Origin: Pandoraea capi
Lineage (GTDB): Bacteria; Pseudomonadota; Gammaproteobacteria; Burkholderiales; Burkholderiaceae
DNA length: 64,000 bases
Assembly (NCBI RefSeq): GCF_902459735.1
Contig: NZ_CABPRV010000006.1
Location: 124,001 to 188,000, forward strand
Reading direction: 5' to 3'
Shown: one piece after another, positions 12,001-61,580 of the stretch
Layout of the letters: each line of letters opens with the position of its first letter
How positions within the stretch are numbered: position 1 is the stretch's first letter
The notes under the pieces: model-generated
What the model saw: only the letters and a program-made list of their open reading frames with translations
The model's database searches: none
What the model was told of the DNA's origin: nothing
Program-made: the position numbers and the translations under genes

Positions 12001-15000
12001 GCCTACTGGCACGTGCTCACGCAGGATCTTGCCGATCGCGGCGCCTCGCTTGCACCGTTGCGGGAGTTCCACGCGGGCGGCGAAGCGATGTCCGCACAGG
12101 GCTGGCGGCGCACGCAGGCAAGCCCGGCGCTCGCCCCGGTCACGCTGATCAACACCTATGGGCCGACCGAAGCGACCATCACCGCAACCGTCTACGACAC
12201 AACGTCGGTGACCGAAGCGACCGCTGCGACGTTCCCGGGCACGGTGCCGATCGGGCGTCCGTTGCCGGGGCGCAGCGTGCAGGTCGTCGCACCGGACATG
12301 ACGGCGGTGCCGCAGGGCGCTGTCGGCGAACTGGTCATCGGCGGCGATCTGCTGGCGCGTGGTTATCTGGGCCGTGCGGCGTTGACGGCCGAGCGCTTCG
12401 TGCCGGACCCGTCGCGTACCGACGGGGGCCGCTGCTATCGCACCGGTGACCTCGTGCGCTGGCGTGCCGACGGTCAGCTCGACTATCTGGGACGTATCGA
12501 CCAGCAGGTCAAGATTCGCGGCCTGCGTATCGAACTTGGCGAAGTGGAAGCCGCCTTGCTGGCGCTCACGGGCGTTCGCGAGGCGGTGGCGTCGGCGCTC
12601 GCAACCCTCGCCGGTGAAGACAAGCGACTCGTGGCATGGGCTACGGCGGAGGCCGGTGCCGTGCTGGACGTGCCCGCGTTGCGCTCGGCCCTCGCCGCCA
12701 CGCTGCCGGCCTACATGGTGCCGGAGGTGCTCGTCGTTCTTGATGCGCTGCCCATGACACCGGGCGGCAAGGTCGATCGCCGGGCGCTGGTGCTGCCGTC
12801 GGCTGATACTGCACCAGATGCTCAGGCGGCGCACGTCGCGGCGCCCGTGGGCGAGACGGAAATCGCGCTGGCGGCGCTGTGGCAATCGCTGCTCGATGTG
12901 CCGACGGTCGGTCGCGACGACAACTTCTTCGCGCTCGGCGGTCACTCGCTCAAGGCGTTGCAGCTCGTCTCGCGTGTGAAGTCGACGCTGGGTCGTGAGA
13001 TGGCGCTGCGCGACGTCTTCGCCACGCCGACGCTCAGCGCGCTCGCGCAGCAGTTGGCGCGTGCGCCGCGTATCGCGGCTGAAACCCCGACTCTCGTTCG
13101 TGTGCCGCGCACCTCGCGCATGCCGCTGTCGCCCACGCAGTACCGTCTTTGGCTGGCCGACAAGCTCGCCAGCCCGGATGACGCGGCGTCGTACACGCTG
13201 GCAACAGCCATGCGGGTGCAGGGCGCGTTCGATGTCGACACCGCGCGTGCCGCCATGGCGTGGCTCGTCGCTCGCCATGAGGTGCTGCGCACGAGCTATC
13301 CGGACGACGACGGCGTGCCGTATGCACGCATCGCGTCGCAGGGTGAAGCGGACATCGATGTCGTCGATCTGGAAGGACGAACCGCATCGGCGCAGGAAGC
13401 CGCTGTGGCCGAGGCCATCGCTGCGCAGTCTCGGCATCGCTTTGGACTGGCGAGCGGCCCGCTTGCCCGGATTCGCCTGCTGCGTCTGTCGTCGAACGAC
13501 CATGTCGTGCTGTTCGCCGTGCATCACATCATTGCCGACGGCTGGGCCATGAGCGTGCTGGTGAGCGAGTTCGCCTCCGCTTACTCGGCGGTGCGTGATG
13601 GACAGGTATCCGGGAAAGCACCGGTTTTCTCGACGACGTCGGAGCTGTCCGCGCCGCAGACGAATCGCGTGGAGTACGTGGACTACGCGGACTGGCAGCG
13701 CAAGGCACTGGACGGGGCGTCCGGCGAGGCGTTGCGCACGTACTGGCGCGATGCACTGCGCGATGCGCCGGCAGCGCTGCGTCTGGACACCGATCACGCG
13801 CGCCCGGAGGCGACGTCTACCGCAGGCGCGGGTGTGCCATTCACCCTGCCGAAGCATCTCGACGCGCCGCTGCGCACATTTGCGCAGCGTCACGGGACGA
13901 CGGCGTCGAGCGTGCTGCTCGCGAGCTATCAGGCGTTCCTGCATCGACTGACCGGCATGGACGATCTGGTGGTGGGCGTGGATTCGGCAGGGCGAAACGA
14001 CGTCGCGCTCGAATCGATGCTGGGCTTTTTCGTCAACGTGCTGCCGGTGCGCTCGCGCTTCGCGGCGAATGGCGCGTCGTTCGCGGCGCTCACCCGCCGC
14101 ACGCATGACGCCATGCTCGGCGCCATCGCTCACGAGGCGCTGCCGTTCGAGCGCATCGTCGAGGCCAGCGGCGTGGCGCGCGAGCCGGGCCGTAGTCCGC
14201 TGGTGCAAACCCTCTTCGTCATGCAGAACACGCCGCGCGGCGCGCTCGCCATCGACGGTCTGCGTATCGACCCGATCGGCCAGCCTACCGCGTCGTCGAA
14301 ATTCGACATGGCGCTGTTCATGCATGAAACCCCGCTCGGCTTTGCCGGCGAATGGGTGTTCGCAACCGATCTGTTCGTGCACGCAAGCATCGAACGCTTC
14401 GTTGCCACCTGGCTCAAGCTTCTGGAGACCTATCTCATGGAACCCGACAATCCGACGAACGAGACCACGCCGGTGTCCGACGCCGCGCGAACGCGAGACG
14501 CCGCCCGCGCCGCGAAGCTGGAAAAACTCGACAAGCTGGGTGCCCTCGGTGGCGCACGCCGCACGGCGCGTGCAGCCTCCGGCGCTGCGGTTGGTCGGGA
14601 CGGCACTACCGCCGCGCCGGACTTTCAGGTCCGCGTCACGCCGATGCAGGCGGGCACGGGCTTCCCGGCGTTGATCGAGCCGTTGCACGCCGATCTCGAC
14701 CCGTTCGTCTGGGCGGCACGCCATCGCGAACAGATTGACCTCTGGCTCGCCCGACACGGCGGTCTGTTGCTGCGTGGCTTCGCCATCGAGGGGCCGCGTC
14801 AGTTCGAGCGCTTCGTTGAGGCGATCGTGCCGGAGCTTTACGGCGATTACGGCGATCTGCCGAAGAAGGAGGAGGGTGAGAGGACGTACCGCTCCACGCC
14901 CTATCCCGAAAAGGAAATGATCCTCTTCCACAACGAAAGCTCGCATCTGGAGCAATGGCCGCGCAAGCAGTGGTTCTTCTGCGAATTGCCTTCGCAGGTC

Positions 15001-15669: not shown

Positions 15670-18600
15670 CGCATCGTCACACCCGACAGAGCCTCAAACG
15701 ATGACCGATACCGGATTTGCATTGACGCCGGAGCAACGCACGCGCGTGGCTCTCGGCATGGAGGCGGCCAGTGTGGCCGTCGTGGTGGCGCCCGATGCGG
15801 CGCTTTCCCCGGACGCGGTGCGTCAGGCGTGGGCGATGCTGTCCGAACGCCATGAACTGCTCACGATGGCGACCGGACAGGTCGAAGGCTTTCGCGGCGT
15901 GCGGCACCTCCCGCAGACGCCTGCGCTGGGCTTGCCGTGGATTGCGCGGCGCGTGAACCACACGTCGGCAGATGCCGCTGCGCTGGCCGCCGCGGCCGGC
16001 CCGATGCCCGAAGACGCCGCCTCGCAACGCGCCAACGCCTGTGCGATCTGGCTCACCTGCGATGGCGTGCTCGACGCCGCACAGGGCGACACCCGTCTGA
16101 TCCTCATGGCGCGGGCCTGGCTGTTCGACGAAGCCAGCCTCGTCGCGCTCGCGCAGGAACTGATCGCTCTGGCATCGGATGTGCCGGGGCAGGCCGGCGC
16201 CGATGACGATGCGCCGTTGCGATACGAGGACTTCGCTTCGTGGCGCGACAGTCTCGTCGAAGGTACCGAAGGACTCGACGGCAAGGCCTACTGGCGTCGG
16301 TACCTCGACGAAGCCGGCTCGCCACGCACGGGCGTGCGGCTTGCAGCGCACCGTCGGCTGCCCGGCAGTGGCGAGGCGACACAGGATACGGTGGCGCATG
16401 GGGTGCGACGCGTCGTGCCCGGCGAGACCGGCGCGGCGCTCGTCGCGATGGCGCAGGCGCGCGGCATTGCGCCGGACCTGCTGTTGCAGGCGGCGTGGTG
16501 GGCGCTGCTGGCCCGCATCGGCGGGCAGTCGCCGGTCGATGGCACCGTGTGCCACGACTGTCGCGCTGACTACGGCCCGCTGGCCGGTTCGCTTGGTGTG
16601 TTCGAGCGGCGCATGCCGGTGCGTGTGTTCCTCGACGACACGCTCTCGCTCGTCGATATCGCCTGCCGACTGGGCGAGACCATCGACGAACATCGCAACT
16701 GGCAGGAATCCGTGCCCGCCGACATCGGCAATCATGGTCTGACATCGCTGCGCATCGTCGTGTGGGATTCGCCTTCTGCGCGCGCGCGTCTGGTCGGCGT
16801 GACGGCACCGGTGGGCAAAGCGGAATGCCATCTGGATCTGGTCACGGATGCTCGCGGCGCCGTGACTCAACTCGCGTTGACGGGCGACGCCCGTGCCTAT
16901 CCGGCCGATGCCCTCGACGTGCTCGCGGATCAGTATCTGACGTTGCTGGGATCGCTCACGGCGCCGGCCAGCGCCGACAGGGCGTGGCGTCAGATCGAGG
17001 TGACGTCCGAACTCCATAAGTCGCGCTATCTGGGCTGGGCAGGACCGGCGCTGACGGTGGCCGACCAAACGGTCGTCCACGCGTTGTTGCGTCACGCGCA
17101 GGAGCGGCCTGATGCCCCGGCGCTGGAGGGCGACGGAAAACGCTTCACGTGGTCGGAGCTCACGAGCGAGATGTTGAAGGTCTCGGCGCACCTGCAAGCG
17201 AAGGGCGTCCGCACGGGCGACACGGTCGCGCTTGCCATGCCGCGCAGCGTCGACATGGTGATCGCATTGCTGGCGACGATGCGCGCGGGGGCGGCCTATG
17301 TGCCGCTCGATCCGTCGTGGCCGGTGTCGCGCGTGCATGCGGTGCTGTCGCAGGCCACACCGGTGCTGGCGATCGTGGCCCCACCGTTCGATGCCTCGGC
17401 ACCGGTGCCGTCGGTGCCGCTCGTATCGTTTTCCGAACTGATGCAGCCGATGGTCGGCGACGCGACCCTGCCAGCGCCGCGTGCGACGGATCGCGCGTAC
17501 GTCGTCTTCACTTCTGGGTCGACCGGCACGCCCAAGGGGGTGCCGATTGGTCATCGTCAGTTGGCGAACTACGCGCATGCCATCTCGAACGTGCTGTGGC
17601 TCTCGTCTAAGCATCGGGTCGCGCTGACCTCGACGGTGGCGGCCGATCTCGGCAATACGGCGCTGTTCGGCGCAATGGCCGCCGGGGCTTGTCTGGTGGT
17701 CGCCAACGAGGCCGACATGGCGGACGGCGCGGCGTTTGCCCGTTTCGTCGGCAGCAATGCCATCGATATCGTGAAGATCACGCCGTCGCATCTCGACGCG
17801 CTGGTGCAGGTGCCGACTGCGATCCTGCCCAGCACCGTCGTGCTCGGCGGGGAGGCGACGCAGCCGTCGCTGGTGGAGGCATTGCGCCGCATTCGCCCGG
17901 ACGTCCGGATCGTCAATCACTACGGGCCGACGGAGACGACTGTGGGGGTGCTGACCCATCTCTGCGAGGCAGCGGGCGACAGCAATGATGCCAATGGCGC
18001 GCTGCCGCTGACACAGCCGCTGGCGAACTGCTACGTGCGGGTGCTCGACGACGACCTCTCGTTCACGCCGGTCGGCGCGCGCGGCATGCTCTACATCGGC
18101 GGTGAGCAACTCACGCAGGGCTACCTCGGACGCGACGCTCGCGAAGGGTTCGTCGACGATCCGTTCCAGCCGGGCGCACGACTCTACCGCACCGGAGACG
18201 TCGCGCGTTGGTTGCCGCAGGGCGGCATTCAATGGCTTGGCCGCGCCGACGAGCAGGTCAAGATTCGCGGCCACCGGGTGGAGCCGGCGGAAATCGAAGC
18301 CGTGTGCCGCGACATTCCGGGGGTGACGCAGGCGGCGGTGCGAACGTGGGGCAGCGGCACGCAGGCGCAGCTCGCCGCTTACGTGGTCGCGCCCGAGATG
18401 GCCGATCCCGTCAAGCTGGTGCGTGACGCGCTGGCCGAGCGTCTGCCTGCCGCATGGATCCCCGCGTTCGTGCTCACGCTGGCCTCAATGCCGCGTCTGG
18501 CGAACGGCAAGGTCGACCGTCAGGCATTGCCGGACCCGAGAGACGGCGCCATGGCGGGCGAGGGCGGTGCGGCCGACGTCGCCCCGCAGACTCCGCTCGA

Positions 18601-18928
18601 AACCTGGCTCGCGAAGCGTCTCGAAGACCTGCTGGGCCGAGCCCCGGTCGGCGTGACGCGAAGCCTGTTCGACCTCGGCGGGGATTCGCTCACGGTGATT
18701 CGTTTCGTTGCCCGGATCGGCGAAGGGCTGCACATCGAAGTGCTGCCGGGACTGGTCTTTGCCAACCCCACGGTGCGTGCGCTGGCGAATGCCTTGCTGG
18801 CGCGCCCCGACGGGGGCGAGGCGCTGGCGCGGCGCGCGCAGGCGCGACTCACGTTCGACGCCTTGTCACCCGAGGCGCAGGCGGCGCTATTGGCACGGGC
18901 GCGTCAGGCGAGCGGCGCGGCGTCCTGA
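15662..18928 (+). CDS. NRPS-2: degenerate C-like (interface?) domain, Asp adenylation domain, carrier domain
   Basis: A 1088-residue single module. Residues ~1-440 align to the condensation fold, but the HHxxxDG active-site motif is absent; the equivalent stretch reads ARAWLFDEAS. The A domain (~460-960) has the code DLTKVGHVGK, one conservative change from the Asp code DLTKVGHIGK (A4-region codons near 17645, Lys near 17777, His near 17917). The carrier has GGDSL near residue 1010. The start overlaps the NRPS-1 stop by 8 nt, implying coupled translation; an in-frame ATG at 15701 is an alternative. In beta-hydroxyaspartate siderophore systems an inactive C-like interface domain recruits the SyrP/TauD hydroxylase to the Asp-loaded carrier. 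Here that hydroxylase is fused to the end of NRPS-1, so I infer this module installs beta-hydroxy-Asp, an alpha-hydroxycarboxylate iron ligand. Confidence 0.93.
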   Translation: MRDASSHPTEPQTMTDTGFALTPEQRTRVALGMEAASVAVVVAPDAALSPDAVRQAWAMLSERHELLTMATGQVEGFRGVRHLPQTPALGLPWIARRVNHTSADAAALAAAAGPMPEDAASQRANACAIWLTCDGVLDAAQGDTRLILMARAWLFDEASLVALAQELIALASDVPGQAGADDDAPLRYEDFASWRDSLVEGTEGLDGKAYWRRYLDEAGSPRTGVRLAAHRRLPGSGEATQDTVAHGVRRVVPGETGAALVAMAQARGIAPDLLLQAAWWALLARIGGQSPVDGTVCHDCRADYGPLAGSLGVFERRMPVRVFLDDTLSLVDIACRLGETIDEHRNWQESVPADIGNHGLTSLRIVVWDSPSARARLVGVTAPVGKAECHLDLVTDARGAVTQLALTGDARAYPADALDVLADQYLTLLGSLTAPASADRAWRQIEVTSELHKSRYLGWAGPALTVADQTVVHALLRHAQERPDAPALEGDGKRFTWSELTSEMLKVSAHLQAKGVRTGDTVALAMPRSVDMVIALLATMRAGAAYVPLDPSWPVSRVHAVLSQATPVLAIVAPPFDASAPVPSVPLVSFSELMQPMVGDATLPAPRATDRAYVVFTSGSTGTPKGVPIGHRQLANYAHAISNVLWLSSKHRVALTSTVAADLGNTALFGAMAAGACLVVANEADMADGAAFARFVGSNAIDIVKITPSHLDALVQVPTAILPSTVVLGGEATQPSLVEALRRIRPDVRIVNHYGPTETTVGVLTHLCEAAGDSNDANGALPLTQPLANCYVRVLDDDLSFTPVGARGMLYIGGEQLTQGYLGRDAREGFVDDPFQPGARLYRTGDVARWLPQGGIQWLGRADEQVKIRGHRVEPAEIEAVCRDIPGVTQAAVRTWGSGTQAQLAAYVVAPEMADPVKLVRDALAERLPAAWIPAFVLTLASMPRLANGKVDRQALPDPRDGAMAGEGGAADVAPQTPLETWLAKRLEDLLGRAPVGVTRSLFDLGGDSLTVIRFVARIGEGLHIEVLPGLVFANPTVRALANALLARPDGGEALARRAQARLTFDALSPEAQAALLARARQASGAAS

Positions 18929-19061: not shown

Positions 19062-19167
19062 ATTTCCGAGATTTTCTTCCGATTCTTACATCGGGCGTCT
19101 CTCCGAATCCCGATGCAGCATGCGCCGCTGAGAGCGCGCCACTACACGTCATAGGGGAAGGTTGCAC

Positions 19168-21411
19168 ATGAAGTCGATTCACGGGCAGGGCCGGTCAACA
19201 AGGAGGGGCGTACTCACACCGAGTCGCATGAGTCTGGCGGTCATGCTGCTGATCCTTGGGCAGGCTGCCGCAGCACAGGCACAGTCGCAGACTGCACAGA
19301 ACAATGCCGGCGGTGACGCCACGTCATCTCCGGCGGCCGGCACTCCCGCCGCATCGCTACCCGCGACGAATGTCGAAGACCGCCGTGATCCGGTGGCCGA
19401 CGCACTCAATCCGGCCACGACGGTCGGCTCGAAGATCCCGATGACTGCGCGCGAGATCCCGCAGAGCGTGTCGGTGATCACGCAGGAACAGATCAGGGAA
19501 CAGAACTTCCAGACGCTCAAGGATGCGATGCAGTACGCACCGGGCATCACGACGCTGCAAAGCGATTCGGACCGCGTGCAGTACTACGCGCGCGGCTTCC
19601 CGATCACGTCGTTCCTCGTGGACGGCACACCGTCCTTCGTGAACAGCAGCATTTCCGTGACGGCGGACACCTTCCAGCCGAGCCTTGCGATCTACGATCG
19701 TGTGGAGGTGCTGACCGGCCCAAGCGGGCTGCTCAACGGTTTCGGCGCACCGGGCGGCGCCGTGAACCTCGTGCGCAAGCACGCGCAGAAAGAGTTCGAA
19801 GCGAGCGCAACGCTCTCGGGCGGCACGCGCGGCAACAGCGGCGCGACTCTCGACGTGGGCGGTCCGCTCAATCCGTCGGGCTCGCTGCGCGGTCGCGCAG
19901 TCGTGTCGTACACCGGCGCCAATGGCGTGCAGGACACCACGAACACGCGTAACAAGGTGCTGTACGGCACGCTGGAAGCGGATCTGACGTCCACGACGCT
20001 GCTGCGCGTGGGGGCGAGCTACAACGAGTACACCTCGAACGAGCCGTGGATCTGGGGCATCTACACCAACGGCACCTACGGCGATCTGCCGCGCGGCCAC
20101 TACTACGGCGCAGGCTGGAACCGTGACACGTTCCGCACGACGGACTTTTTCGCCGAGCTGCACCAGAAGCTGGGTGGCGGCTGGACTGCCAAGGCCGTGC
20201 TCGATTACGTCTACTCGCGCTCGACCACGCTGCAAGCCAGCCAGTTCAATGCCTGGGACCCGGTCACGTACACGGGCGATATCAGCGCAACGAACAACGT
20301 GGTGAGCGAAGGCAAGACGAACATCGACGTGTCGGCAACGGGTCCGTTCACGCTGTTCGGCCGCACGCATCAGGCGACCATCGGCGCGAACTACATGCGC
20401 ATGGTCGAACACCAGTCGCAATATTACGGCGACCCGAGCAATCTGTTCAGCGTGACGAACGTCAACTTGCTGGACATTCTGTATCCGATGCCGGTGTTCC
20501 CGGGCACCCCGGACACTACCAGCCGCAACAACACGTACGCCAAGCAGTATGGTTTTTATGGTCAGACGCGTCTCTCGCTGCTCGATCAGCTGACCCTGAT
20601 TCTCGGCGGGCGCGTGAGCTGGTATCAGTCGCGTTTCGCCGTCGATCCGACGTACAACGTCTTCGGCATGACGGGCAATTCGCTGGGCAATGCCGGTAAG
20701 TTCACGGGCTACGCCGGGCTGGTGTACGACCTGAACAAGACGTGGTCGGTCTACACGAGCTACACGAGCATCTTCCAGCCGCAGGACAACCTGCTCACGA
20801 CCTCCGGCACGCTGATCAAGCCGATTACGGGCGATCAGTACGAGGCGGGGATCAAGGGCGAGTTCATGGACGGCCGTTTCACGACGGCGTTCGCGGTGTA
20901 TCAGATCAACCAGAAGAATCGCGCCATGGTGGATCCGAATGATCCGACCTCGTCGCACTACATCGGACTGGGCAAGGCGCGCACGCGCGGCTTCGAACTG
21001 TCGGGGACCGGAGAACTGACGCCGGGCTGGAAGTTGTTCGGCAGCTACACGTACAACAACAGCCAACTGGAAGATTCGAACAGCTTCGACACGATCGCGT
21101 CGCCGTTCGCGTCGATCTCGCCGCACAACATCTTCAAGCTCTGGACCAGCTATCGCCTGCCGGGCATGTTGCATGGCCTCACGCTGGGCGGTGGCGTCAC
21201 GGCGGTGAGCGAAACGTCGGCCTCGCGTAACGGCTATACCGCCACGCAGGGCTTCTACGCGGTGGTCGATGCGTCGATCAGCTATGCCTTCACGAAGAAG
21301 ACGTCGCTGTCGCTCAACGCCAACAACCTGTTCGATCGCGACTACTTTGCCGCGGCTTACGCACGCGGACAGCCGCGCACCGTGATGTTGACGTTGCGCA
21401 CGGCCTACTGA
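19168..21411 (+). CDS. TonB-dependent siderophore receptor
   Basis: A 747-residue outer-membrane receptor for ferric siderophore, placed between two NRPS genes and therefore probably the cognate uptake receptor. It has a signal peptide with the hydrophobic stretch SLAVMLLILGQAAAAQA, then a plug domain (EIPQSVSVITQEQI, QYYARGFPI, RVEVLTGPSGLLNG, APGGAVNLV), then the beta-barrel, ending LTLRTAY. The ATG at 19168 is chosen over a TTG at 19162 because AGGGGAAGG (19152-19160) is well spaced from it. The space between signal peptide and plug (~35 residues) is too short for an STN signalling domain, so FecI/FecR-type surface signalling through this receptor is unlikely. A Fur-box-like site lies upstream. 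Confidence 0.95.
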   Translation: MKSIHGQGRSTRRGVLTPSRMSLAVMLLILGQAAAAQAQSQTAQNNAGGDATSSPAAGTPAASLPATNVEDRRDPVADALNPATTVGSKIPMTAREIPQSVSVITQEQIREQNFQTLKDAMQYAPGITTLQSDSDRVQYYARGFPITSFLVDGTPSFVNSSISVTADTFQPSLAIYDRVEVLTGPSGLLNGFGAPGGAVNLVRKHAQKEFEASATLSGGTRGNSGATLDVGGPLNPSGSLRGRAVVSYTGANGVQDTTNTRNKVLYGTLEADLTSTTLLRVGASYNEYTSNEPWIWGIYTNGTYGDLPRGHYYGAGWNRDTFRTTDFFAELHQKLGGGWTAKAVLDYVYSRSTTLQASQFNAWDPVTYTGDISATNNVVSEGKTNIDVSATGPFTLFGRTHQATIGANYMRMVEHQSQYYGDPSNLFSVTNVNLLDILYPMPVFPGTPDTTSRNNTYAKQYGFYGQTRLSLLDQLTLILGGRVSWYQSRFAVDPTYNVFGMTGNSLGNAGKFTGYAGLVYDLNKTWSVYTSYTSIFQPQDNLLTTSGTLIKPITGDQYEAGIKGEFMDGRFTTAFAVYQINQKNRAMVDPNDPTSSHYIGLGKARTRGFELSGTGELTPGWKLFGSYTYNNSQLEDSNSFDTIASPFASISPHNIFKLWTSYRLPGMLHGLTLGGGVTAVSETSASRNGYTATQGFYAVVDASISYAFTKKTSLSLNANNLFDRDYFAAAYARGQPRTVMLTLRTAY

Positions 21412-21439: not shown

Positions 21440-21473
21440 TCTGGCGCGCGCCGTCGTGCGCCAGATTGCTTTT
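21440..21473 (+). terminator. Terminator-like hairpin between receptor and NRPS-3
   Basis: TCTGGCGC (21440-21447) pairs perfectly with GCGCCAGA (21458-21465) and is followed by TTGCTTTT. This is a plausible weak intrinsic terminator after the receptor stop at 21411. NRPS-3 starts 46 nt after it with no obvious promoter between, so it may attenuate rather than end transcription. Confidence 0.45.
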
Positions 21474-21518
21474 CCGGCCCGGGCAAGTGCACGGGCCGTT
21501 TCACCGGAGGATGCTGGA

Positions 21519-35266
<13,748 letters not shown>

Positions 35267-35270
<4 letters not shown>

Positions 35271-38200
35271 CACTTCGTATTTCACGTACCGTGAACCCTC
35301 GTAAATTCCTCACCCTTTCAGTGTCCGGCGCCTTGTGTCTGGCGATACTCGGCGCTTGTGCGACGGATACGTCGCACTCGCCCGGCAGCGCCAGCGAGGG
35401 CAGCGCGCAGTCCTATCGCGCCCGGATCGAACGGACCGCCGACGGCGTGCCGCATGTGGTCGCCAACGACTGGGGCAGCCTCGGCTGGGGCGCCGCGTAC
35501 GTGCAGGCGCAGGACGATCTGTGCACCATGGCGCAGGCGTTTGTCACGTACCGTGGTGAGCGCTCGCGCTACTTCGGCGCGCAGGGCCAGCAGCCGACGG
35601 CCAGCACGCTTGGCGAACTCGACAATCTCGATTCCGACTTTTTCTTCCGCTTCGTCGCTGACGACGCTCGGCTGCAAGCCTATCGTGACGCCCAGACGCC
35701 GCAGTTTCGTGCGCTGGTCGACGGGTTCGCTGCCGGTTACAACCGCTACCTGAACGACTGGCAACGCGGCGGGGCGAGCGGTGTCGGCCCGGCGCATGCC
35801 GCGTGCCGCAACACACCGTGGGTGACGACGATCTCGCCGGAGGATGTCTATCGACGGCTTTTCGCAGCGAACCTTGCCGGAGGCATGGCTCGCTTCGCCG
35901 GACGTGTCGTGAGCGCCAAGCCGCCCGGCAACGCGCCCGCTTCGCCCCAAGCGCAAGACGGTGCGGCGTCGACAGACAAGCTTGCGTTGCGCCCCGGCGC
36001 ATTCGACGTGGGCGGTGGGCGGGGCATCGGCAGCAACGCACTGGCGTTCGGTGCGCAAGGCAGCGCTCGCGGGACTTCCGGTCAAGGTGGCGCGTCGGTG
36101 TTGCTCGGCAATCCGCACTGGTTTCTCGAAGGACCTGACCGCTTCTATCAGATGCGCCTGACGTTGCCCGGCCAGCTCGACGTCAGCGGCGTGTCGTTCC
36201 TCGGCGTGCCGGTCGTCATGATCGGCTTCAACCACAATGTCGCGTGGACGCATACCGTGTCGGCGGCGCGCCGGTTCGGTCTGTTTCAGTTATCCCTCGC
36301 CCCCGATAGCGATACCACGTATCGGGTCGACGGCAAGCCGGTGGCCATGACACCCGTTGTCGTCACGGTGCCCGTGCGCGAGAGCGACGGCACGGTGCGC
36401 CCGCATACCCGCACGTTGTATCGCACGGCGCTGGGGCCGGTCGTGAATCTCGCGTCGCTTTCGCCCGCGTTGCAATGGCGTGCCACGGCACCGGGCAATC
36501 CGGGGCTGGCGTTCGTGATCCGCGACATCAACGCTGAGAACTACCGGGTCTTTGCGAACTTCCTCGCGTGGGGCCGCGCATCGTCACTGGACGAATTCGT
36601 CGGCATCGCGCGCCGCGAGGCGGCAACCCCCTGGGTGAACACGGTCGCGATCGGTCGCGACGATCCGCGCGTGTGGTTCGGCGACGTGGGCGCCATGCCC
36701 AACGTGCCGGACTCTCTGGCCGCCCGATGCACGCCGCCACTGGGCAAGGCGCTCGCCTCGCAGGTGCCGGGCGTGCCTTTCCTCGACGGCTCGCGCTCGA
36801 CGTGCGACTGGCAAACCAGTCCCGGCGCGGCACAGGCCGGCGCGTTGCCCGCCGATGCCATGCCGCAGATGTTTCGCAACGATTACGTTGCGAACATGAA
36901 CAACACGCACTGGATCGTCAATCCGGCGCAACCGCTCACCGGCTTCGCCGCGGTCACGGGGCAGGAGCGCACGGAGATGGGGTTGCGTCCGCGTCTGGGC
37001 TTTCGCATTGCTGAGCAGCGCATGCGGGGCAGCGACGGCCTCGGTGCGCCGGGCGCGAGCGTCGACACAGTCGCGCGCGCGGCGCTCGATGCCAGAGCGA
37101 TGTCCGCATTGCTGTTCAAGTCGCAGGCGCTGGCGAGCGCCTGTCGTGCCGACGGGCGTCGGCAGATCGTGACGGTGGAGCCGTCCGGCGACCCGCAGGG
37201 TGATCAGCCGGGCAAGACGGCAGCGCCGCGCGACGTCGACATTGCACCGGCATGCGCGGTGTTGAAGAAATGGGACGACAAGGGCGGACCCTTCGCGCAG
37301 GGGGCGGTGCTGTGGAACGCCTGGTGGGCACAGATCAAAGCGGTACCGGAAGACAAGCGGTTTGCCGTGCCGTTCGATCCGCAACGTCCGCTGGACACGC
37401 CTGCGACGCTGAAGCTCGACGGCAAGACGCTCGCCAATGGGCTCGGTGTCGCCGTGCTGCGCCTGCGTGAAGGTGGATTTACGCCGGACGTCGAAACAGG
37501 CTCGGCCATGTACGCCACGCGCAATGGCGTCAGAATCCCGTGGTTCGGCGGATGCGACGACGAAGGCTACTTCACCTCGGGTTGCAATAGCGACGCCCGC
37601 ATCGAGGACGGCGCATTGAAGATCGACGCCCACGCGTTCTCGAACAGCTACATGCAGATCGTGACGTTCGGGGCGAACGGCGGCCCCGTCGACGCACGTA
37701 CGCTCATGGCCGGTTCGCAGGCCGACGATCCGGCGTCGCCGCATTTTGCCGACGGCACGCTGCGCTACAGCAAGCAGGCATGGGTGGCGCGTCCGCTCGA
37801 TGCCGTCACCTCGGCAACGTCAGCGAAGCCGGATAGTGGCGGCGCATGGCTCGACAGTGCACAGGCGACGCCGTTCGTGCTGTCCGATGTCGGCGCTTCG
37901 GCGACGCTCCCGGCACGGTGGCAGGCGTTGGCGTCGCAAGGCGTCCCGGCACGCGAAGCCAGCGAACTGCTGGGGACGTCCGAGGCGGCGCTCGTGGCAA
38001 CGGAGCAGGGCAGCCTGATCGTGCCGCTGCGCATGGGGCGCGAGGACTTCCCCGCGATGCTTGCCAACCTTCACCGGTTGGGAGGTCTAGAAGTGATGGT
38101 GCGAACGGAGCAGGGTATCGGCGAAAAAATCGTGCGGTCGTCCAAACCGCTCTTCGATGCGAACGGCCACGCGACGTCGGCGCTGGGAATGACACTGGAC

Positions 38201-38878
38201 GTCTCGCGCTGGCAGTCCGCGTATGCGGTCACACGGTACTACGGCCCGAAGCGCGAACCGTACCGCCAGTTGCAGTTCTTCGACGCACAGGGTCGGAATA
38301 TCGCTAAGATGACGGTCCTGGACTCGAAACCGGCGGCGCACGTGATGGACTACGATGCATTTGTCGCGTCTTATCGCGCGGGCCCGCAGGACATCGCTTC
38401 GATAAAGGGGGCGACGCCCAAGCCCGTGGCTGCGCAGGTGCCGGTAACGCAAGGCCGCTGTGCGCTGGCTAGCGATGACGGCCGCCGTGCCCGCATGGCG
38501 CTGGCCGACGCATTGGACGCCGCCCGAACGAACGGCTGGCCGGTGCGCCTTGGCGTGAACAACGGCGCAGCATCGCTGGCGCAGGACGGGCGCATCGAGA
38601 AGATCGAGAATATCGGCGGCGGATGGCTCAGCGTGCAGATCCGCCACTTCACCCTGCATGTGCGGGCATCCGGTATCGCCGCGCAGTGCGCCGACATCAG
38701 TGCGCAGGACGAAGCGAACCGTAAGTCGGAAGACATCACGTGGTTCGACAGCTTTGGTGCGCCGGTCGTCTCTCTGGCGCTCGCGCCGCAAGCTACCGCG
38801 CAACAACGTGAGCGCTGGCTCGCGATGTGGCAAAAGGGCGATGCGCCGGCGCTGGCGGTGTCGCGCCGATCTCCCTGA
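35267..38878 (+). CDS. Exported PvdQ-like Ntn-hydrolase acylase fused to a HemS-like C-terminal domain
   Basis: A 1203-residue lipoprotein. The signal peptide ends in the lipobox LGAC (Cys31). The acylase part spans ~45-860: penicillin-acylase features GVPHVVANDWGSLGWGAAYVQAQDDL, given here as positions ~58-84, and a G|SNA autocleavage site with Ser256 as the expected nucleophile of the beta subunit. PvdQ removes the fatty acid from acylated pyoverdine precursors in the periplasm; I infer the same job here. PvdQ is only ~760 residues. The surplus C-terminus (~875-1195) resembles HemS/HmuS haem proteins: LGTSEAAL near 902, an R..LQFFDAQG segment near 1000, LGVNNG, and GGGWLSVQIRHFTLHVR near 1117. 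HemS proteins are normally cytoplasmic, so an exported, lipid-anchored copy is odd. Translationally coupled to NRPS-3 (ATGA overlap). Confidence 0.9.
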
Positions 38879-38941: not shown

Positions 38942-39862
38942 ATGAAACGTCGTAGTTTTTGTGCCGGTGCCGCCGCCATGCTGGCGGGGGCCGGTTCTCT
39001 GGTCCAGGCAGCCGGACGCCCGCCGACGGGGTCCGCGCTGCGCATTCTTGCGCCCGATCGCGGCGCGGTGTCGTCGCTGCTCGCCCTCGGCGTCGAACCC
39101 ATTGCCGGTGCCGATCGCGCTTTCTACGACTCGATGGGCGCCGAGCCTCGCATGCCGCCGGGCATGAATATCGTCAACAGCGGCGACCCCATCGAGCCGA
39201 ATCTCGAACTGATGATCGAGCTGGGCATCAACTGGTGCGTGACCGTCACCACGCCGCAAATCGCCCGCGAGCGCATGAGCGTGGTCGCCCCGGTCACCCA
39301 TCTGGACATCTTCACCGGCCAGATCGGCGCGCTCGACCGGGCGGCCGATGGTCTGCGCACGCTGGCGCGCCTGACCGGTCGTGAAGCGCAGGCCGCCGCG
39401 TATATCGGGCAGGTCGAAGCGCGCATGGCTGAGGTCGCCCACACGCTCGCGCAAAGCGGCCGTCCCCCGCAACGTCAGACCTATCTCGTCACGCTCAACG
39501 ACGGCGGACGCTCCATGGTCGCGTATGGCCGCAACAGCATCATGTGGGACGTCATGACGCGTGTGGGGCTTCGCAATGCCTGGACGCGCAGCACTAATGA
39601 GTATGGATTCAGCGTCGGCGGCGTGGAATTGCTGGCCGAAGCGCCGGATGCCGACATCGTGGTCGTCGACTTCGGTGCGTCGACGACGGCCGCGCTGCGT
39701 CAGCTCGCCGTCAGCCCATTCTGGAACCGGCTCGCTTCCGTCCGTGCGGGGCGTGTCTACCGGATTCCGCTCATCGATCTTTTCAATTCGTATCCTTCTG
39801 CCATGACGCTGCTGAGCGGGCTCGACGGACTCGTTCGCCGTGAGGATTTTCGCCATGTCTAG
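38942..39862 (+). CDS. Periplasmic iron-siderophore binding protein, FhuD/FecB type
   Basis: 306 residues. The N-terminus MKRRSFCAGAAAMLAGAG has a twin-arginine-like pair and a short hydrophobic core ending near VQAAG. The body follows the helical-backbone binding fold of cluster-8 binding proteins: SLLALGVEPIAGAD, NLELMIELGINW, an RM..VAPVTHLDIF stretch, and the late PDADIVVVDFG and RVYRIP segments. It delivers ferric siderophore from the periplasm to the downstream permease. The start is preceded by GGAAAG. Its end overlaps the permease start. Confidence 0.92.
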   Translation: MKRRSFCAGAAAMLAGAGSLVQAAGRPPTGSALRILAPDRGAVSSLLALGVEPIAGADRAFYDSMGAEPRMPPGMNIVNSGDPIEPNLELMIELGINWCVTVTTPQIARERMSVVAPVTHLDIFTGQIGALDRAADGLRTLARLTGREAQAAAYIGQVEARMAEVAHTLAQSGRPPQRQTYLVTLNDGGRSMVAYGRNSIMWDVMTRVGLRNAWTRSTNEYGFSVGGVELLAEAPDADIVVVDFGASTTAALRQLAVSPFWNRLASVRAGRVYRIPLIDLFNSYPSAMTLLSGLDGLVRREDFRHV

Positions 39863-41864
39863 CGCGGTCATTCCGACGCCGATGCCGCCGCGCGAGACGT
39901 CGCCGCTGTCGTTCGTTCTCCTCCTGTTCGTGCTGGCGCTCGGACTCACGTGGCTGAATCTGCACAATGCGCTGCCCGCCACGGGCTGGCGCGGTTTGCT
40001 GCCCGCCGCCGATCCCGACGACATGAAGCGCGTGGTGATCGAGTATTCGTTTGCACCGCGTCTGGCGGTCTCGCTGCTGGCGGGCGTGGCGTTGTCGCTC
40101 GCGGGCGGGCTGTTTCAGCATGTCCTGCGCAATCCACTCGCCGAGCCGACGACGCTGGGCGTGGCTGCCGGGGCCAATCTGGCGATGACGCTCACGACAC
40201 TGTGGATGCCGTCGCTGCTCATCGAGCATCGCGACGCCGTCGCGCTCGGCGGTGCCGTCGCCGCATTCACGTTGGTGTTCGTCATCGCGTGGGCGCACTC
40301 GCTCTCGCCGTTGGTGCTGATTCTGTGCGGGCTGGTCGTCACGCTTTGCGCGGGGTCCATCGGCTCGGTGCTGTCGTTGTTCTTCCACGAAGGATTGCTC
40401 GGTGTGTTCGTCTGGCAATCCGGCGCGCTCAACCAGAATAGCTGGACGATCGCGCAGCAGTTGCTGCCACGCATTGCGCTCGGTGCGGTAGCGACGGCGT
40501 TGCTGGTGCGCCCGCTCTCGGTCATGTCCGTGGGGGACGAGGCCTCGCGTGCCCTCGGGGTATCGCTGCGCGGGTTGCGTCTATGCGCGCTTTTCGTCGG
40601 CACATTGCTGTGCGCATGGATCGTCAGCGCATTGGGCGTGATCGGGTTCGTGGGACTGGCCGGGCCTGCACTGGCGCGTCTGGCCGGCGCGCGTACGCTC
40701 GGCCGGCGCCTGACCTGGGGCGCGATCATTGGCGCATTGCTGCTGTGGCTGGCGGATCAACTGGTGCAGTGGCTCGGTCAGTGGATTCCGGAGATTCCCA
40801 CGGGGATCGCGACAGCGCTGCTCGGGGCGCCCCTGTTGCTGTGGCTGCTGCCGCAATTGCACGACAGCGCGCATGTGCATCGACCCGAAGGGCCGGTCGT
40901 GCAGCGCGAGCCGCGCAATCTCTGGGTCGTGGTCATCGGCGCGCTCGTCGTGCTCGTCGCCATGACGGTGGCCGCCGTGCTCGTCTCGCAAGGGTTGTCG
41001 GGATGGCGGGTGGATACGTTTGCATCGCTCGGCCAATTGACGTCGCTGCGGGTGCCGCGTGTGGTCGGTGCGCTGGCGGCGGGGGCCATGCTCTCGGTCG
41101 CGGGCATTCTGATTCAGCGTCTGACGGCCAATCCGATGGCGAGTCCGGAAGTGCTGGGGATCTCGTCGGGCGCGTCGCTCGGATTGATCGTGCTGCTGTT
41201 CGCGGTGAATTCGCCGTCGCAGACCATGCAGCTTGCGGCCGCGTCGGCCGGGTCGTTTCTCGCGCTCGGTGCGATGTTCCTGCTCGCGCGCCGGAGCGGC
41301 TTCTCGCCGGAGCGCCTGATTCTCACCGGCATCGGTATCAGCACCGTGTTCAGCGGCCTCGCGTCACTGATGATGGCCAGCGGCGACCCGCGCATGGCGA
41401 TGCTGCTGGCGTGGATGGCGGGGTCGACGTACGGGGTCGGGGTGACGCAGGCGAGCGTGGCGTTGATGATCGCGGTGGTGCTGTTGCCGCTGGTGCTCTT
41501 CGCCGCACGTGCGCTCGACATCCTGCCGCTGGGCGAAGCCGTCGCCCGGTCGGTCGGCGTGAACGTCGGACGCGCCCGCTTCGGGCTGCTGCTCGCAGCC
41601 GCCGTGCTCAGTGCTGCGGCCACGCTCATCATCGGCCCGATTTCGTTCGTCGGCCTGATGGGACCGCATATCGCACGACTGCTGGGCCTGCAACGCCCGG
41701 TGTCGCAGATTTTCGGCGGTGCCTTCGTGGGCGCGGCCATGCTGGTGCTGGCGGACTGGATCGGGCGCAATGCGCTATTCCCCGACCAGATGCCGGCGGG
41801 GCTGCTGGCGACGTTCGTCGGCGGCCCGTATTTCCTGATGCTGATCTGGCGCGATCGGACCTGA
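39855..41864 (+). CDS. fhuB: Fused two-half FecCD/FhuB-type siderophore permease
   Basis: 669 residues, the usual length of FhuB, with two homologous FecCD halves (~1-335 and ~350-669), each with about ten hydrophobic helices. Each half shows the family signatures: LSLAGGLFQHVLRNPLAEP in the first, LSVAGILIQRLTANPMASP in the second, then GFVGLAGP and SFVGLMGPHIARLL. The ATG at 39855 is chosen because GAGGA lies 8 nt before it; an in-frame ATG at 39840 is less well placed. It overlaps the binding-protein gene by 8 nt, so the two are probably coupled. It moves the siderophore across the inner membrane with the FhuC-type ATPase. Confidence 0.94.
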   Translation: MSSAVIPTPMPPRETSPLSFVLLLFVLALGLTWLNLHNALPATGWRGLLPAADPDDMKRVVIEYSFAPRLAVSLLAGVALSLAGGLFQHVLRNPLAEPTTLGVAAGANLAMTLTTLWMPSLLIEHRDAVALGGAVAAFTLVFVIAWAHSLSPLVLILCGLVVTLCAGSIGSVLSLFFHEGLLGVFVWQSGALNQNSWTIAQQLLPRIALGAVATALLVRPLSVMSVGDEASRALGVSLRGLRLCALFVGTLLCAWIVSALGVIGFVGLAGPALARLAGARTLGRRLTWGAIIGALLLWLADQLVQWLGQWIPEIPTGIATALLGAPLLLWLLPQLHDSAHVHRPEGPVVQREPRNLWVVVIGALVVLVAMTVAAVLVSQGLSGWRVDTFASLGQLTSLRVPRVVGALAAGAMLSVAGILIQRLTANPMASPEVLGISSGASLGLIVLLFAVNSPSQTMQLAAASAGSFLALGAMFLLARRSGFSPERLILTGIGISTVFSGLASLMMASGDPRMAMLLAWMAGSTYGVGVTQASVALMIAVVLLPLVLFAARALDILPLGEAVARSVGVNVGRARFGLLLAAAVLSAAATLIIGPISFVGLMGPHIARLLGLQRPVSQIFGGAFVGAAMLVLADWIGRNALFPDQMPAGLLATFVGGPYFLMLIWRDRT

Positions 41865-41902: not shown

Positions 41903-42802
41903 ATGACACAACACACAGCAAGACCGAGTGACACGATGATGGAAGACACAGAATTCGCCGCCACACCTTCGGCGGCGGTCGGAACGGGGACTGACCCGCA
42001 CGCAGCGCATGCCGCTCACGATGTGCCCTCGCCGATGTACGACCTGCGCGACGTGTCGTTCAAGGTCGGAGACCGCACCTTGTTGCAACCGCTCACGCTC
42101 ACGCTCGCACCACGCCGCGTAATCGGGCTGATCGGGCACAACGGGTCGGGCAAATCGACGCTGATCAAGCTGCTGGCCCGTCAGCAGGCGCCCGCCGGGG
42201 GAGAGATTCGCTTCGAAAACAAGCGGCTGGACGACTGGCAGGGCCGGGCGCTGGCACGCAAGATTGCCTATCTGCCGCAACACACGCCGCCTGCGGCCGG
42301 TCTGCGGGTGCGGGAACTGGTGCGCTTCGGTCGGTATCCGTGGCATGGGCCGCTGGGTCGTTTTTCCGCGCAGGATCTGGCGCGGGTCGATGAGGCGATG
42401 GAGCTGACCGGCGTCGCGCGATTCGCCGACCGGCTGGTCGATACGCTCTCAGGCGGCGAGCGTCAGCGCGTGTGGCTGGCCATGCTCGTCGCGCAGGATG
42501 CCGACTGCCTCTTGCTCGACGAGCCCATTGCCGCGCTCGACGTCGCGCATCAGGTGGAAGTGCTCTCGCTAGTTCAGTCGCTCTCACGCACACGTGGGCT
42601 GGGTGTGGTGGTGGTGCTTCACGACATCAACATGGCCGCACGGTTTTGCGACGAGATCGTGGCGTTGCGCGGCGGGCGTCTGTGTGCCCGGGGCACGCCG
42701 GCCGACCTGATGACGAGTGAGCGTCTGGAAGAGATCTACGACATCGCAATGGTGGTGATGTCGCATCCGCAAACCGGTGAGCCGGTTTGCGTCGTCCGTT
42801 AA
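41903..42802 (+). CDS. fhuC: FhuC-type ATPase of the siderophore ABC importer
   Basis: 299 residues. Walker A GHNGSGKST, Q-loop YLPQHTPP, signature LSGGERQR, Walker B CLLLDEPIAALD, switch His in LHDINMAARFCDEI. The N-terminus carries a ~45-residue low-complexity, His/Ala-rich extension before the ATPase domain; a later start near MYDLRDVSF is possible but has no better ribosome site. It follows the permease by 38 nt and powers it. Confidence 0.93.
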   Translation: MTQHTARPSDTMMEDTEFAATPSAAVGTGTDPHAAHAAHDVPSPMYDLRDVSFKVGDRTLLQPLTLTLAPRRVIGLIGHNGSGKSTLIKLLARQQAPAGGEIRFENKRLDDWQGRALARKIAYLPQHTPPAAGLRVRELVRFGRYPWHGPLGRFSAQDLARVDEAMELTGVARFADRLVDTLSGGERQRVWLAMLVAQDADCLLLDEPIAALDVAHQVEVLSLVQSLSRTRGLGVVVVLHDINMAARFCDEIVALRGGRLCARGTPADLMTSERLEEIYDIAMVVMSHPQTGEPVCVVR

Positions 42803-42826
42803 GTTTCACGATTGGGGAAAATTGCC

Positions 42827-44551
42827 ATGACCGACCGTTCCACTGGTCAATCGCCTGACAAGACGCGCATCGGGCACGAGCTGTTCCGGCTGTTCCGGCC
42901 CTTCCTCCCGATGAGCCTGTTCTCTACGGTCATGGGCGTGGTCGCAGGTCTCACCACGGCGTGGCTGCTCGCGACGATTAACGACGGCCTGCATGCGCCC
43001 GACGGCATCACCGGCAAGACAGTCGTGACGTTCGTCGTGCTTTGCGCGGTCACCCTTGCCGGCAATGCGATTTCCGGCGTGGGCAACAGCGTGATCGGCC
43101 AGAAGATCATTGCGGCACTGCGCAAGGACATCTCGGCGCGTATCGTCTGCGCGCCTATCGCCGAAGTCGAGCGCTATCGCGTGCACCGGTTGCTCGCCAC
43201 GCTCAACAGCGACGTCGACACCGTCAGCGCCGTGACCTTCAATTTCCCTGGCTTCATGGTGGCCGTGGCGATCGCGCTCGGATGCGTGGTCTATATGGTG
43301 GTGCTCTCGCCGCTGTTGTTCCTCTTCGCGTTGGCCGCCATCCTGATCGGTCTGGGGATCAATCACTACGCGTCGTTGCGTTGGGATTTCCACTATCAGG
43401 GGGTGCGCGGCGCACAGGACGATCTTCAGAAGCAGTACCGCGCGATTACCGAAGGTGCCAAAGAATTGCGCCTGAACCGCGCCCGTCGTCAACGTGTGTA
43501 CGGCGAGCAACTCTCGGGCGCCGCTGATCTGATCAGTGAGCTAAAGAGCCGCGCCATGCGTCTTTACTACGCGGCCAACGCGATGGGCAGCATGCTGTTC
43601 TTCGTCGTGATCGGGTTGATTCTTCTGTTGCAGTCGAGCCTTGGCGTGGATTCGCGCGCCGTCAGCGGCTTCGTGATCGTGCTGCTCTATATTCGCGGGC
43701 CCATCGAGATGATTGCCGGTGGCCTGCCGACCTTGATTCAGGCGCGTGTCTCGTTCCAGCGCATTGCCGAACTCACGAGTCAGTTCCGCAATCAGGAACC
43801 GCGTCTGATCGACGGCCCGGCGCCCGGCGAACCGGCCTTTCCTACGATGCACACGCTCGCGCTGAAAAAGGCGACGCACGTGTTTCCTGCCGTGGGCGAC
43901 AGCACGCAGTTTCAGCTCGGGCCGATCGATCTCGAGATCCGTCGCGGCGAAACACTGTTTATCGTGGGCGAGAACGGTTGCGGCAAGACCACGCTGATCA
44001 AGACACTGCTCTCGCTCTATAGCCCGGGCGACGGCGAGTTGCTCGTCGACGGCAAGCCGGTGCCGGCCGAGCGGCTCGACGATTTTCGTCAGCAGTTCTC
44101 GGCGGTGTTCTCCGACTATCATCTGTTCGACGATCTCGTGGCGAGCGATCCGCAAACGCTGGCGCATGCGCAGGCCTATCTGGAGCAACTCGGGTTGGCG
44201 CACAAGGTGAGCATCGTCGACCGGGCGTTCTCCACTATCGATTTGTCGGCCGGGCAGCGCAAGCGGCTGGCGCTGGTGCATGCGTACCTGGAAAACCGTC
44301 CGTGGATGGTGCTCGACGAATGGGCAGCCGATCAGGACCCGACGTTCCGTCGCTACTTCTATCAGGAGATGCTGCCGGACTTCAAGCGTCAGGGCAAAAC
44401 GCTGATCGTCATCTCGCACGACGATCGGTATTTCGGTCTGGCCGATCGCGTGGTGCGTCTGCATCAGGGGCGCATCGTCGAGGAAGCCGACGGCAGTACG
44501 TTCGCCTACGAGCCGAATGTGGATGCGCCGGTGAGTGCTTCAGTGGAGTGA
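42827..44551 (+). CDS. PvdE/SyrD-type cyclic-peptide/siderophore export ABC transporter
   Basis: 574 residues, with an N-terminal six-helix membrane domain (~15-290) fused to an ATPase domain (~330-570). Walker A GENGCGKTT; signature LSAGQRKRL; Walker B WMVLDEWAADQDP; switch His ISHDDRYF. The LS(A/T)GQRKR plus DEWAADQDP combination is characteristic of the family that includes PvdE and SyrD, which export acylated siderophore or lipopeptide precursors to the periplasm. The start at 42827 is preceded by GGGGAA at good spacing; a TTG at 42812 was rejected. Export followed by periplasmic deacylation fits the acylase in the same operon. Confidence 0.94.
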   Translation: MTDRSTGQSPDKTRIGHELFRLFRPFLPMSLFSTVMGVVAGLTTAWLLATINDGLHAPDGITGKTVVTFVVLCAVTLAGNAISGVGNSVIGQKIIAALRKDISARIVCAPIAEVERYRVHRLLATLNSDVDTVSAVTFNFPGFMVAVAIALGCVVYMVVLSPLLFLFALAAILIGLGINHYASLRWDFHYQGVRGAQDDLQKQYRAITEGAKELRLNRARRQRVYGEQLSGAADLISELKSRAMRLYYAANAMGSMLFFVVIGLILLLQSSLGVDSRAVSGFVIVLLYIRGPIEMIAGGLPTLIQARVSFQRIAELTSQFRNQEPRLIDGPAPGEPAFPTMHTLALKKATHVFPAVGDSTQFQLGPIDLEIRRGETLFIVGENGCGKTTLIKTLLSLYSPGDGELLVDGKPVPAERLDDFRQQFSAVFSDYHLFDDLVASDPQTLAHAQAYLEQLGLAHKVSIVDRAFSTIDLSAGQRKRLALVHAYLENRPWMVLDEWAADQDPTFRRYFYQEMLPDFKRQGKTLIVISHDDRYFGLADRVVRLHQGRIVEEADGSTFAYEPNVDAPVSASVE

Positions 44552-45398: not shown

Positions 45399-46151
45399 AT
45401 GACGGCGCGTGCACGACAACTGCATGGCGCTGGCAGGTGGCCCGCGGACCTCGACGTCTGGCATGTACCGCTGGGCGGCGCGCCGGCGGCTCAGGGGGGG
45501 GAGGCGGCTGACGCGACGCCGGACATCTATCGTTATCTCGATGCCGATGAACTGGCGCGCGCGCGACGGTTTCGCTACGACGTCGACCGGGAGCGCTTCG
45601 CGAAAACCCGCTCGGCGCTGCGGGTGCTGTTGAGCAAGTACACGGGAATACCACCCGAGTCGATTGGCTTCACGCAGGGCGAATTCGGCCGCCCGGAACT
45701 GGCGCCAGTGGGCGCGGAACCCGGTGCCAGTCTGTCTTTCAACGTCTCCCATACCGGGGGCGATGCGCTGATCGCCATTTCCCGAACGCGCAGCGTCGGC
45801 ATCGACCTTGAGGTGCAGCAGCGTGCGCTCAATTGGCAGGAGCTTGCGCCGCTCGTGTGCACGGCGCAGGAACGCGCCGACATCGACTCGCTGCCTTCAC
45901 CGGCCCGGTGCGACGCCTTCCTTCGGTGCTGGACCGCCAAGGAGGCCATTCTGAAAACGATTGGCCTGGGGATTGCCGAGGGGTTGTTGTGCCTGCGGGT
46001 CGATGTCGGCCATCTTGCCGTGCAACGCCCCATCGTCGCTGATGTCGCTGATGCCTCGCGCTTTCAGGCCGCCGGGCAGTTGAACTTCCTGTGGATCGAC
46101 GACGTGCCGGGGTGTCAGGCCTGTCTGGCGTGGCAGGCCCTGTCCGTCTGA
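45399..46151 (+). CDS. Sfp-type 4'-phosphopantetheinyl transferase
   Basis: 250 residues. It carries the three hallmark blocks: SFNVSHTGG (~120), VGIDLEVQ (~138, Mg-binding Asp and Glu) and RCWTAKEAILKTIGLG (~180). Such enzymes attach phosphopantetheine to the conserved Ser of carrier domains, here presumably all carriers of NRPS-1, -2 and -3. GAGG lies 7 nt before the ATG. The Fur-like site upstream would tie its expression to iron limitation. Confidence 0.93.
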   Translation: MTARARQLHGAGRWPADLDVWHVPLGGAPAAQGGEAADATPDIYRYLDADELARARRFRYDVDRERFAKTRSALRVLLSKYTGIPPESIGFTQGEFGRPELAPVGAEPGASLSFNVSHTGGDALIAISRTRSVGIDLEVQQRALNWQELAPLVCTAQERADIDSLPSPARCDAFLRCWTAKEAILKTIGLGIAEGLLCLRVDVGHLAVQRPIVADVADASRFQAAGQLNFLWIDDVPGCQACLAWQALSV

Positions 46152-61305: not shown

Positions 61306-61507
61306 GACGACTTCCCAACCGGACCGCTCGACACGGTCAGACGACGGCCGCGCGTTCAATTGCCCCTCGTGAGGACAACGCGCGGCGCGCCAAAGCATAG
61401 AGAAATGGACAAAAAATGTCCGTTTCTCAACATTTTTTGCGATTCACAGCAAAACGATCCCCGGTATTCTACCAACTGCCATCAGGGTTCAGGTGGCGGA
61501 TACAAGT

Positions 61508-61526
61508 GATAATAGTAATGCGTCTC
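61508..61526 (+). promoter_or_regulatory. Fur-box-like site upstream of second receptor
   Basis: GATAATAGTAATGCGTCTC has 13 of 19 matches to the Fur consensus. A second overlapping partial match, AATGCGTCTCATT, follows it. It lies 54 bases before the receptor start, in an AT-rich stretch. Confidence 0.55.
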
Positions 61527-61580
61527 ATTTATTTTAATTCATTCAGACAGAATGACACTGACGCGGGAAGCGGACGTAAA

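Follow-up and report, generated by a model that had tools for sequence, protein, structure and literature searches.

Siderophore acylases of the PvdQ/MacQ type and haem proteins of the HemS type (HemS, HmuS, ChuS, PhuS) are the closest described counterparts of the protein considered here, the product of an open reading frame (ORF) at positions 35,267 to 38,878 of a 64,000-nucleotide stretch of the Pandoraea capi genome (hereafter the window; positions 124,001 to 188,000 of contig NZ_CABPRV010000006.1, assembly GCF_902459735.1). Acylases of this type serve in the maturation of pyoverdine and in the cleavage of acyl-homoserine lactones; PvdQ acts on pyoverdine, from which it removes the acyl chain, and its residues beta-Ser1, His23 and Asn269 are taken here to be the catalytic ones. 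For HmuS, His196 and Arg102 are tied to haem degradation in the excerpted part of a review. On the siderophore side, the comparison extends to the C-diazeniumdiolate (graminine) compounds: the adenylation (A) domain code published for graminine (Gra) is DVHRTGLVAK, and the tistrellabactin cluster, which includes a grbD homologue, lies on plasmid pTM2 of Tistrella mobilis. The published statements used here come from excerpts of PMC12144892, PMC6018153, PMC10391617, PMC6771848, PMC9679993 and PMC10587159.

In the Pandoraea protein the two types are joined, and the fusion of an acylase with a full tandem HemS-type domain is confirmed at the level of sequence. The tail has lost the part by which known HemS proteins hold haem and has probably been put to a new use. 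In the overall reading that we prefer, at about even odds, the fusion works in the periplasm, probably anchored by a lipid, and matures an acylated siderophore made by non-ribosomal peptide synthetases (NRPS), and the tail is a non-haem module of the HemS fold.

Architecture and distribution of the fusion protein

A preliminary description of this DNA had presented the N-terminal part as an N-terminal nucleophile (Ntn) hydrolase of the PvdQ type, with lipobox Cys31 and predicted nucleophile Ser256, which the Pfam match, the LGAC motif and the alignment with PvdQ bear out (Table 1). Ser256 is aligned with residue 1 of PvdQ chain 5ubl, and the three residues Ser256, His284 and Asn545 fall on beta-Ser1, His23 and Asn269. 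The closest solved chain for the acylase domain is 5c9i (E 7.7e-205), which we take to be MacQ. Since the NCBIfam PvdQ equivalog model gives only 483 of the 950 bits required, the enzyme is a relative of PvdQ and not PvdQ itself; it probably trims the fatty tail off an iron-scavenging peptide. A lipobox-like cysteine is found in all five fusions checked (including L042-L045), the location being predicted from these sequence signals.

The residues after the acylase had been described as matching both HemS/HmuS repeats in order. Pfam places ChuX_HutX (902-1030, E 6.1e-14) and HemS (904-1034, E 2e-13) on the tail, each in two stretches and all over the gathering cut-off. In phmmer, the tail alone matches 4cdp (E 2.4e-6) and 1u9t (E 4.1e-6, both whole-sequence values), with both halves in order; taken singly, each half is weak against these chains (independent E-values 0.09-0.6). 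A profile of five tails reaches PhuS (4mf9) with E 1.4e-19 in a single stretch spanning both repeats, and all seven solved chains matched at E up to 1 (PhuS and six others) are of the HemS type. The comparison of profiles by HHalign, the kind of check proposed beforehand, aligns the tail with stand-alone HemS proteins at 99.8% (E 9.8e-29, 304 columns, score 205.5). On the strength of these matches the tandem HemS identification, with repeats of the PF05171 type, is right. The tail also retains the QFFD..G block, one Trp and the F.LH.R block, as seen in an alignment with 31 stand-alone HemS rows (plus-strand loci only, with at least three repeats: L002, L051, L057; a later set holds 70 different rows).

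The fusion is present in six genomes, namely that of the window (G000), four further Pandoraea (G117, G168, G204, G205) and Chitinasiproducens palmae (G006), and thus in 5 of the 32 Pandoraea genomes; an alignment scan of genome contigs turned up four carriers, P. horticolens, P. iniqua, Pandoraea sp. PE-S2T-3 and C. palmae. The two-domain architecture therefore recurs in five genomes beyond the first, as a search proposed at the outset had asked, and an assembly artefact is ruled out. Among 200 sampled genomes of the family, G000, G117 and G168 gave matches that cover most of the tail, G006 matched it in two pieces (42-43%), and 36 others showed weaker HemS-type matches to one half. Acylases of the fusion type were found in 17 of the 32 Pandoraea, five fused (84-100% identity) and 12 without the tail (46-48%), in a survey of 45 loci of which 44 were read (L117 left out), C. 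palmae lying outside these searches. A BLAST comparison of 43 of these acylases with the tail and with HemS gave matches for the five Pandoraea fusions only. L125 ends as a plain acylase, and the nearest unfused acylase seen (G020) stands in a run of PvdE-, FhuB-, FhuD- and FhuC-like genes.

No further fusion was found in samples of 399 genomes of the order, 321 of the class and 145 of family f8 (another Burkholderiales family), where some could be missed because genomes were sampled and at most 5, 6 and 14 candidates were scored per genome. A single-protein scan of genome contigs likewise found no fusion, and of the plasmid records 48 had acylase matches, in none of which a single place covered 80% of the fusion.

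Haem-ligand residues and constraint in the tail

The axial-His motif DxHxF, present in 49 of 51 stand-alone HemS rows, occurs in none of the six fusions, at any place in the tails. Stand-alone rows without it are L155 and L156, both distant and poorly aligned, of which L156 has His at the column. The matching histidine (H216 of L001, in TDTHQF) is found in 31/31 stand-alone rows and in 0/5 aligned fusions. At the column of the distal arginine (alignment column 403, equated with HemS Arg102 by counting along an alignment), Arg stands in 31/31 stand-alone rows and Thr in four of the five fusions. Q274, N291 and D294 of HemS (L001 numbers), again in all 31 rows, are also gone from the fusions. 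With these residues lost together with the axial His and, in four of five, the distal Arg, the known haem site is gone from the tail. The sixth fusion (G168) belongs to the tail profile set (A1) and was left out of the alignments behind the ligand columns, the cysteines, the substitution rates and the tree.

HemS proteins had been regarded beforehand as cytoplasmic, which does not apply to all of them. Sec or lipoprotein signals, judged by eye and from hydropathy in rows drawn out by the tail profile, are found in 16 stand-alone HemS rows, all of family f8 (L058, L074, L131-L142, L147, L148), and all 16 keep DxHxF. They form one group (100/100 support) in a HemS tree that left out L151, L157 and 17 near-copies, while the fusions form a long branch of their own. 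A tree joining the fusions with the exported HemS proteins is 1.13 log units worse in the approximately unbiased (AU) test (p 0.467) and is neither supported nor rejected; in HHalign the tail scores alike against exported HemS (206.1) and the other HemS proteins (205.5). The fused tail may have come from the exported proteins. In G470 (L130:7467-10900), a gene for one of them begins 14 bases downstream of a TonB-dependent receptor gene, and the pair looks like a haem-uptake operon. A search of the open-licence literature gave nothing relevant by title on exported or periplasmic HemS.

With DxHxF missing from every fusion and the distal Arg from four of five, with a siderophore cluster around the gene and no haem-transport family among the seven neighbours scanned, and with a separate stand-alone HemS kept elsewhere in all five fusion-bearing Pandoraea (for C. 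palmae, none was listed in the tail search of the family sample), we regard as improbable the earlier proposal that the exported tail handles haem, binding or degrading it by another ligand set and linking haem with siderophore iron. The sole invariant histidine of the five aligned fusions, H1131, is shared by 31/31 HemS rows and is not at the ligand position. The proposal draws on the HemS type of every solved chain matched by the tail profile, on the existence of exported HemS proteins that have the His, one of them directly behind a receptor gene, and on the review excerpt, according to which HmuS keeps haem binding after replacement of His196 or Arg102, only degradation being abolished.

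Each tail has exactly two cysteines (P0001 residues 1065 and 1141), located in the same columns in all five aligned fusions; the G168 tail, read outside the alignment, has two as well. Stand-alone HemS rows show Ala/Gly and Trp/Tyr at these columns, the alignment near Cys1065 being uncertain. As two conserved cysteines in an exported protein, they are candidate disulfide partners, and a Cys1065-Cys1141 bond is suggested.

The ratios of nonsynonymous to synonymous substitution rates (dN/dS), calculated pairwise among four Pandoraea fusions (six pairs), are 0.082-0.112 for the acylase, 0.138-0.268 for HemS half 1, 0.129-0.240 for half 2 and 0.277-0.745 for the segment between the halves (the site of the former His segment), which is the loosest of these parts; the values are rough, as they come from a simple Nei-Gojobori (NG86) script in which the synonymous proportion (pS) is about 0.5 or higher for most comparisons, and C. 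palmae pairs are near saturation. Both HemS halves look constrained. This bears on the possibility that the tail is a structural add-on without a ligand, there only to stabilise, dimerise or anchor the acylase. The faster evolution of the tail (72-82% and 68-91% identity for the halves versus 84-95% for the acylase, in four Pandoraea rows), the absence of the haem-ligand segment and the unfused acylases that manage without a tail would all agree with such a role, yet Pandoraea and C. palmae have the two-half pattern and many invariant residues in common, and dN/dS is well under 1 within Pandoraea, so that we consider a mere add-on rather unlikely.

Gene neighbourhood and predicted siderophore

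By BLAST, six loci share one gene order between the NRPS end and the phosphopantetheinyl transferase (Table 1): L034, L036, L042, L043, L044 and L045, of which L034 and L042 belong to one species. In Pandoraea sp. PE-S2T-3 (L044:11973-14014), the FhuB-like gene is read in two overlapping frames, through either a genuine disruption or an error in the sequence. At the NRPS start, fatty acyl-AMP ligase (FAAL) models are the best specific NCBIfam matches, below their cut-offs (best 410.6 of 600 bits). Upstream lie two further genes (L040:4406-7191), one for a protein of the YqcI/YcgG family and one for a GrbD-like protein. The latter shows 51% identity over 95% to a protein of Tistrella mobilis pTM2 and a Pfam cupin match below the cut-off, and of the 32 Pandoraea its gene is found in the 5 that bear the fusion and in no other; C. 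palmae has it too. The YqcI/YcgG family protein, considered as a possible GrbE (arginine hydroxylase) homologue, gives a weak GntA match below the cut-off.

Two of the 11 A domains read D-V-H-R-T-G-L-V-A, the tenth residue (Lys) not being read; the codes were taken from sequence segments by position rules that we assume to hold. Because an acyl starter, a GrbD-like gene and two graminine-coded A domains occur together, we predict that the NRPS genes make an acylated peptide containing two graminines, which would place a graminine siderophore in Pandoraea; no paper on Pandoraea and graminine was found in a search of the open-licence literature.

The chemistry of nitric oxide (NO) normally needs a haem or metal centre. 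Since the known haem ligand is gone from the tail, it is very improbable that the tail deals with NO or with the photoreactive graminine diazeniumdiolate, protecting or sensing the siderophore, the more so as the GrbD-bearing Tistrella cluster has an acylase without the tail. What such a role would account for is the co-occurrence of the fusion with the GrbD-like gene in five Pandoraea and C. palmae, graminine siderophores being reported as NO donors in the published excerpts.

A second TonB-dependent receptor gene is located ~22 kb downstream of the fusion gene (window 61416-63755), with a gene for an AraC-type regulator (Pfam; 60514-61398) beside it on the opposite strand. In two other Pandoraea (L127:6291-15255 and L128:4965-14087), an unfused acylase lies between TonB receptor and FhuCBD-like genes and adjoins an NRPS; if these loci are the pan cluster, an acylase there would be surprising, given that the acyl chain stays on pandorabactin.

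Table 1. Positions in the window of the fusion gene, its parts and the surrounding genes.
Feature	Position	Strand	Basis or remark
First NRPS gene, 3' part	1..15669	+	Gene starts 12.7 kb upstream of the window (G000:C6:111293); its first domain is fatty acyl-AMP ligase-like
Second NRPS (condensation, A and thiolation domains, C-A-T)	15662..18928	+	Domain matches
TonB-dependent siderophore receptor	19162..21411	+	Domain matches
Third NRPS, four A-domain motifs, terminal thioesterase motif, last A domain graminine-coded	21456..35270	+	Motifs, code reading
Whole fusion ORF: lipoprotein signal, acylase, tandem HemS-like extension	35267..38878	+	1203 aa, no internal stops
Signal, lipobox LGAC (residues 28-31), predicted lipidated Cys31	35267..35359	+	Residues 1-31
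MacQ/PvdQ-type Ntn acylase domain	35420..37801	+	Residues 52-845; Pfam Penicil_amidase E 1.7e-102
Ser256, predicted autocatalytic nucleophile (PvdQ beta-Ser1)	36032..36034	+	Alignment; H284 and N545 conserved too
Linker, residues 846-901, variable	37802..37969	+	Limits are Pfam edges
HemS-like half 1, residues 902-1035; Thr at distal Arg position	37970..38371	+	Pfam, alignment
Segment between halves, residues 1036-1072, without the axial-His segment (DxHxF) of HemS	38372..38482	+	Alignment
Cys1065, invariant cysteine, candidate disulfide partner	38459..38461	+	Alignment
HemS-like half 2, residues 1073-1190	38483..38836	+	phmmer, profile, HHalign
Cys1141, second invariant cysteine; Trp in 30/31 HemS rows	38687..38689	+	Alignment
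FhuD-like periplasmic binding protein	38942..39862	+	FhuD model 124.6 of 252 bits (below cut-off); next gene after the fusion in six loci checked
FhuB-like permease (FecCD)	39840..41864	+	Domain match
FhuC-like ATPase	41903..42802	+	ABC_tran match; taken to be FhuC by position
PvdE-like cyclic peptide export ATP-binding cassette (ABC) transporter	42812..44551	+	573 bits, cut-off 286
4'-phosphopantetheinyl transferase	45399..46151	+	Domain match

Proposed function and comparison with known systems

In the preferred reading, the maturation enzyme would work as follows. The NRPS genes, with their fatty acyl-AMP ligase-like start, would build an acylated peptide with two graminines (the domains and code are observed), and the PvdE-like transporter, whose gene is present in the cluster, would carry it into the periplasm. 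There the exported acylase may cleave itself between Gly255 and Ser256 and remove the acyl chain, in the manner of PvdQ on pyoverdine, as its conserved residues suggest. The beta chain would bear the tandem HemS-fold domain, which would have ceased to be a haem protein of the described type; in it the two-half pattern is kept, the haem-ligand segment lost and a candidate disulfide gained. From this loss, together with the constraint on both halves, we infer that the tail may position the precursor or dock the enzyme to a partner, e.g. the FhuD-like protein or the exporter.

Several points weigh against this. The C. palmae fusion retains Arg at the distal column, the HmuS replacements are said to leave haem binding intact, and haem might be bound through another residue. 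Moreover, close unfused acylases in siderophore clusters, among them the one beside the GrbD-bearing Tistrella cluster, do without the tail, which is thus not needed for such siderophores generally. The idea of a repurposed ligand-binding domain, raised in the preliminary description as an alternative, fits better than haem handling, and the tail may, on this idea, recognise the siderophore. The boldest form of this idea, that the tail is the first HemS-fold domain to leave haem, an exported, disulfide-locked and haem-less module serving a siderophore-maturing acylase as a recognition arm with specificity for an acylated siderophore of the graminine (diazeniumdiolate) type, is put forward tentatively.

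If true, the HemS/ChuX fold, found in haem proteins for all chains matched, could be recruited as a periplasmic non-haem module, and a siderophore acylase could carry a built-in recognition arm. Further leads are the predicted graminine-type siderophore of Pandoraea and the clade formed by the exported HemS proteins. The preliminary description knew of no protein of this composition, and the literature search agrees, as none was found for PvdQ, siderophore and HemS (the sole match by title was a gene-finding tool); such an absence is weak evidence, because the search spans open-licence papers only.

In comparison with PvdQ and MacQ, the fusion shares the whole-length acylase domain, the Ser/His/Asn residues, the export signal and a siderophore NRPS neighbourhood with an acyl starter, and differs by ~358 extra C-terminal residues of the HemS type and by its score below the equivalog cut-off. 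With HemS, HmuS, ChuS and PhuS it has in common the two halves in order and the QFFD..G and F.LH.R blocks; unlike them, it bears a lipobox, has lost DxHxF (6/6) and the distal Arg (4/5), has two new cysteines, and its gene is not in a recognised haem locus. The exported HemS proteins of family f8 likewise have a Sec or lipoprotein signal at the N-terminus, ahead of their HemS domains, whereas they are stand-alone and keep the axial-His motif. The clusters of the C-diazeniumdiolates gramibactin and the tistrellabactins resemble that of the fusion in the GrbD homologue and the graminine A-domain code, while the Tistrella acylase (annotated in two pieces) ends within ~30 residues of the acylase match. 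Pandorabactin (pan) comes from the same genus and, according to the excerpted paper, from a siderophore NRPS started by a FAAL; unlike the predicted product of the fusion cluster, pandorabactins keep the acyl chain, the word 'acylase' being absent from the main text of that paper, and they are built by 6 modules, compared with the 11 A domains and the GrbD-like gene of the cluster described here.

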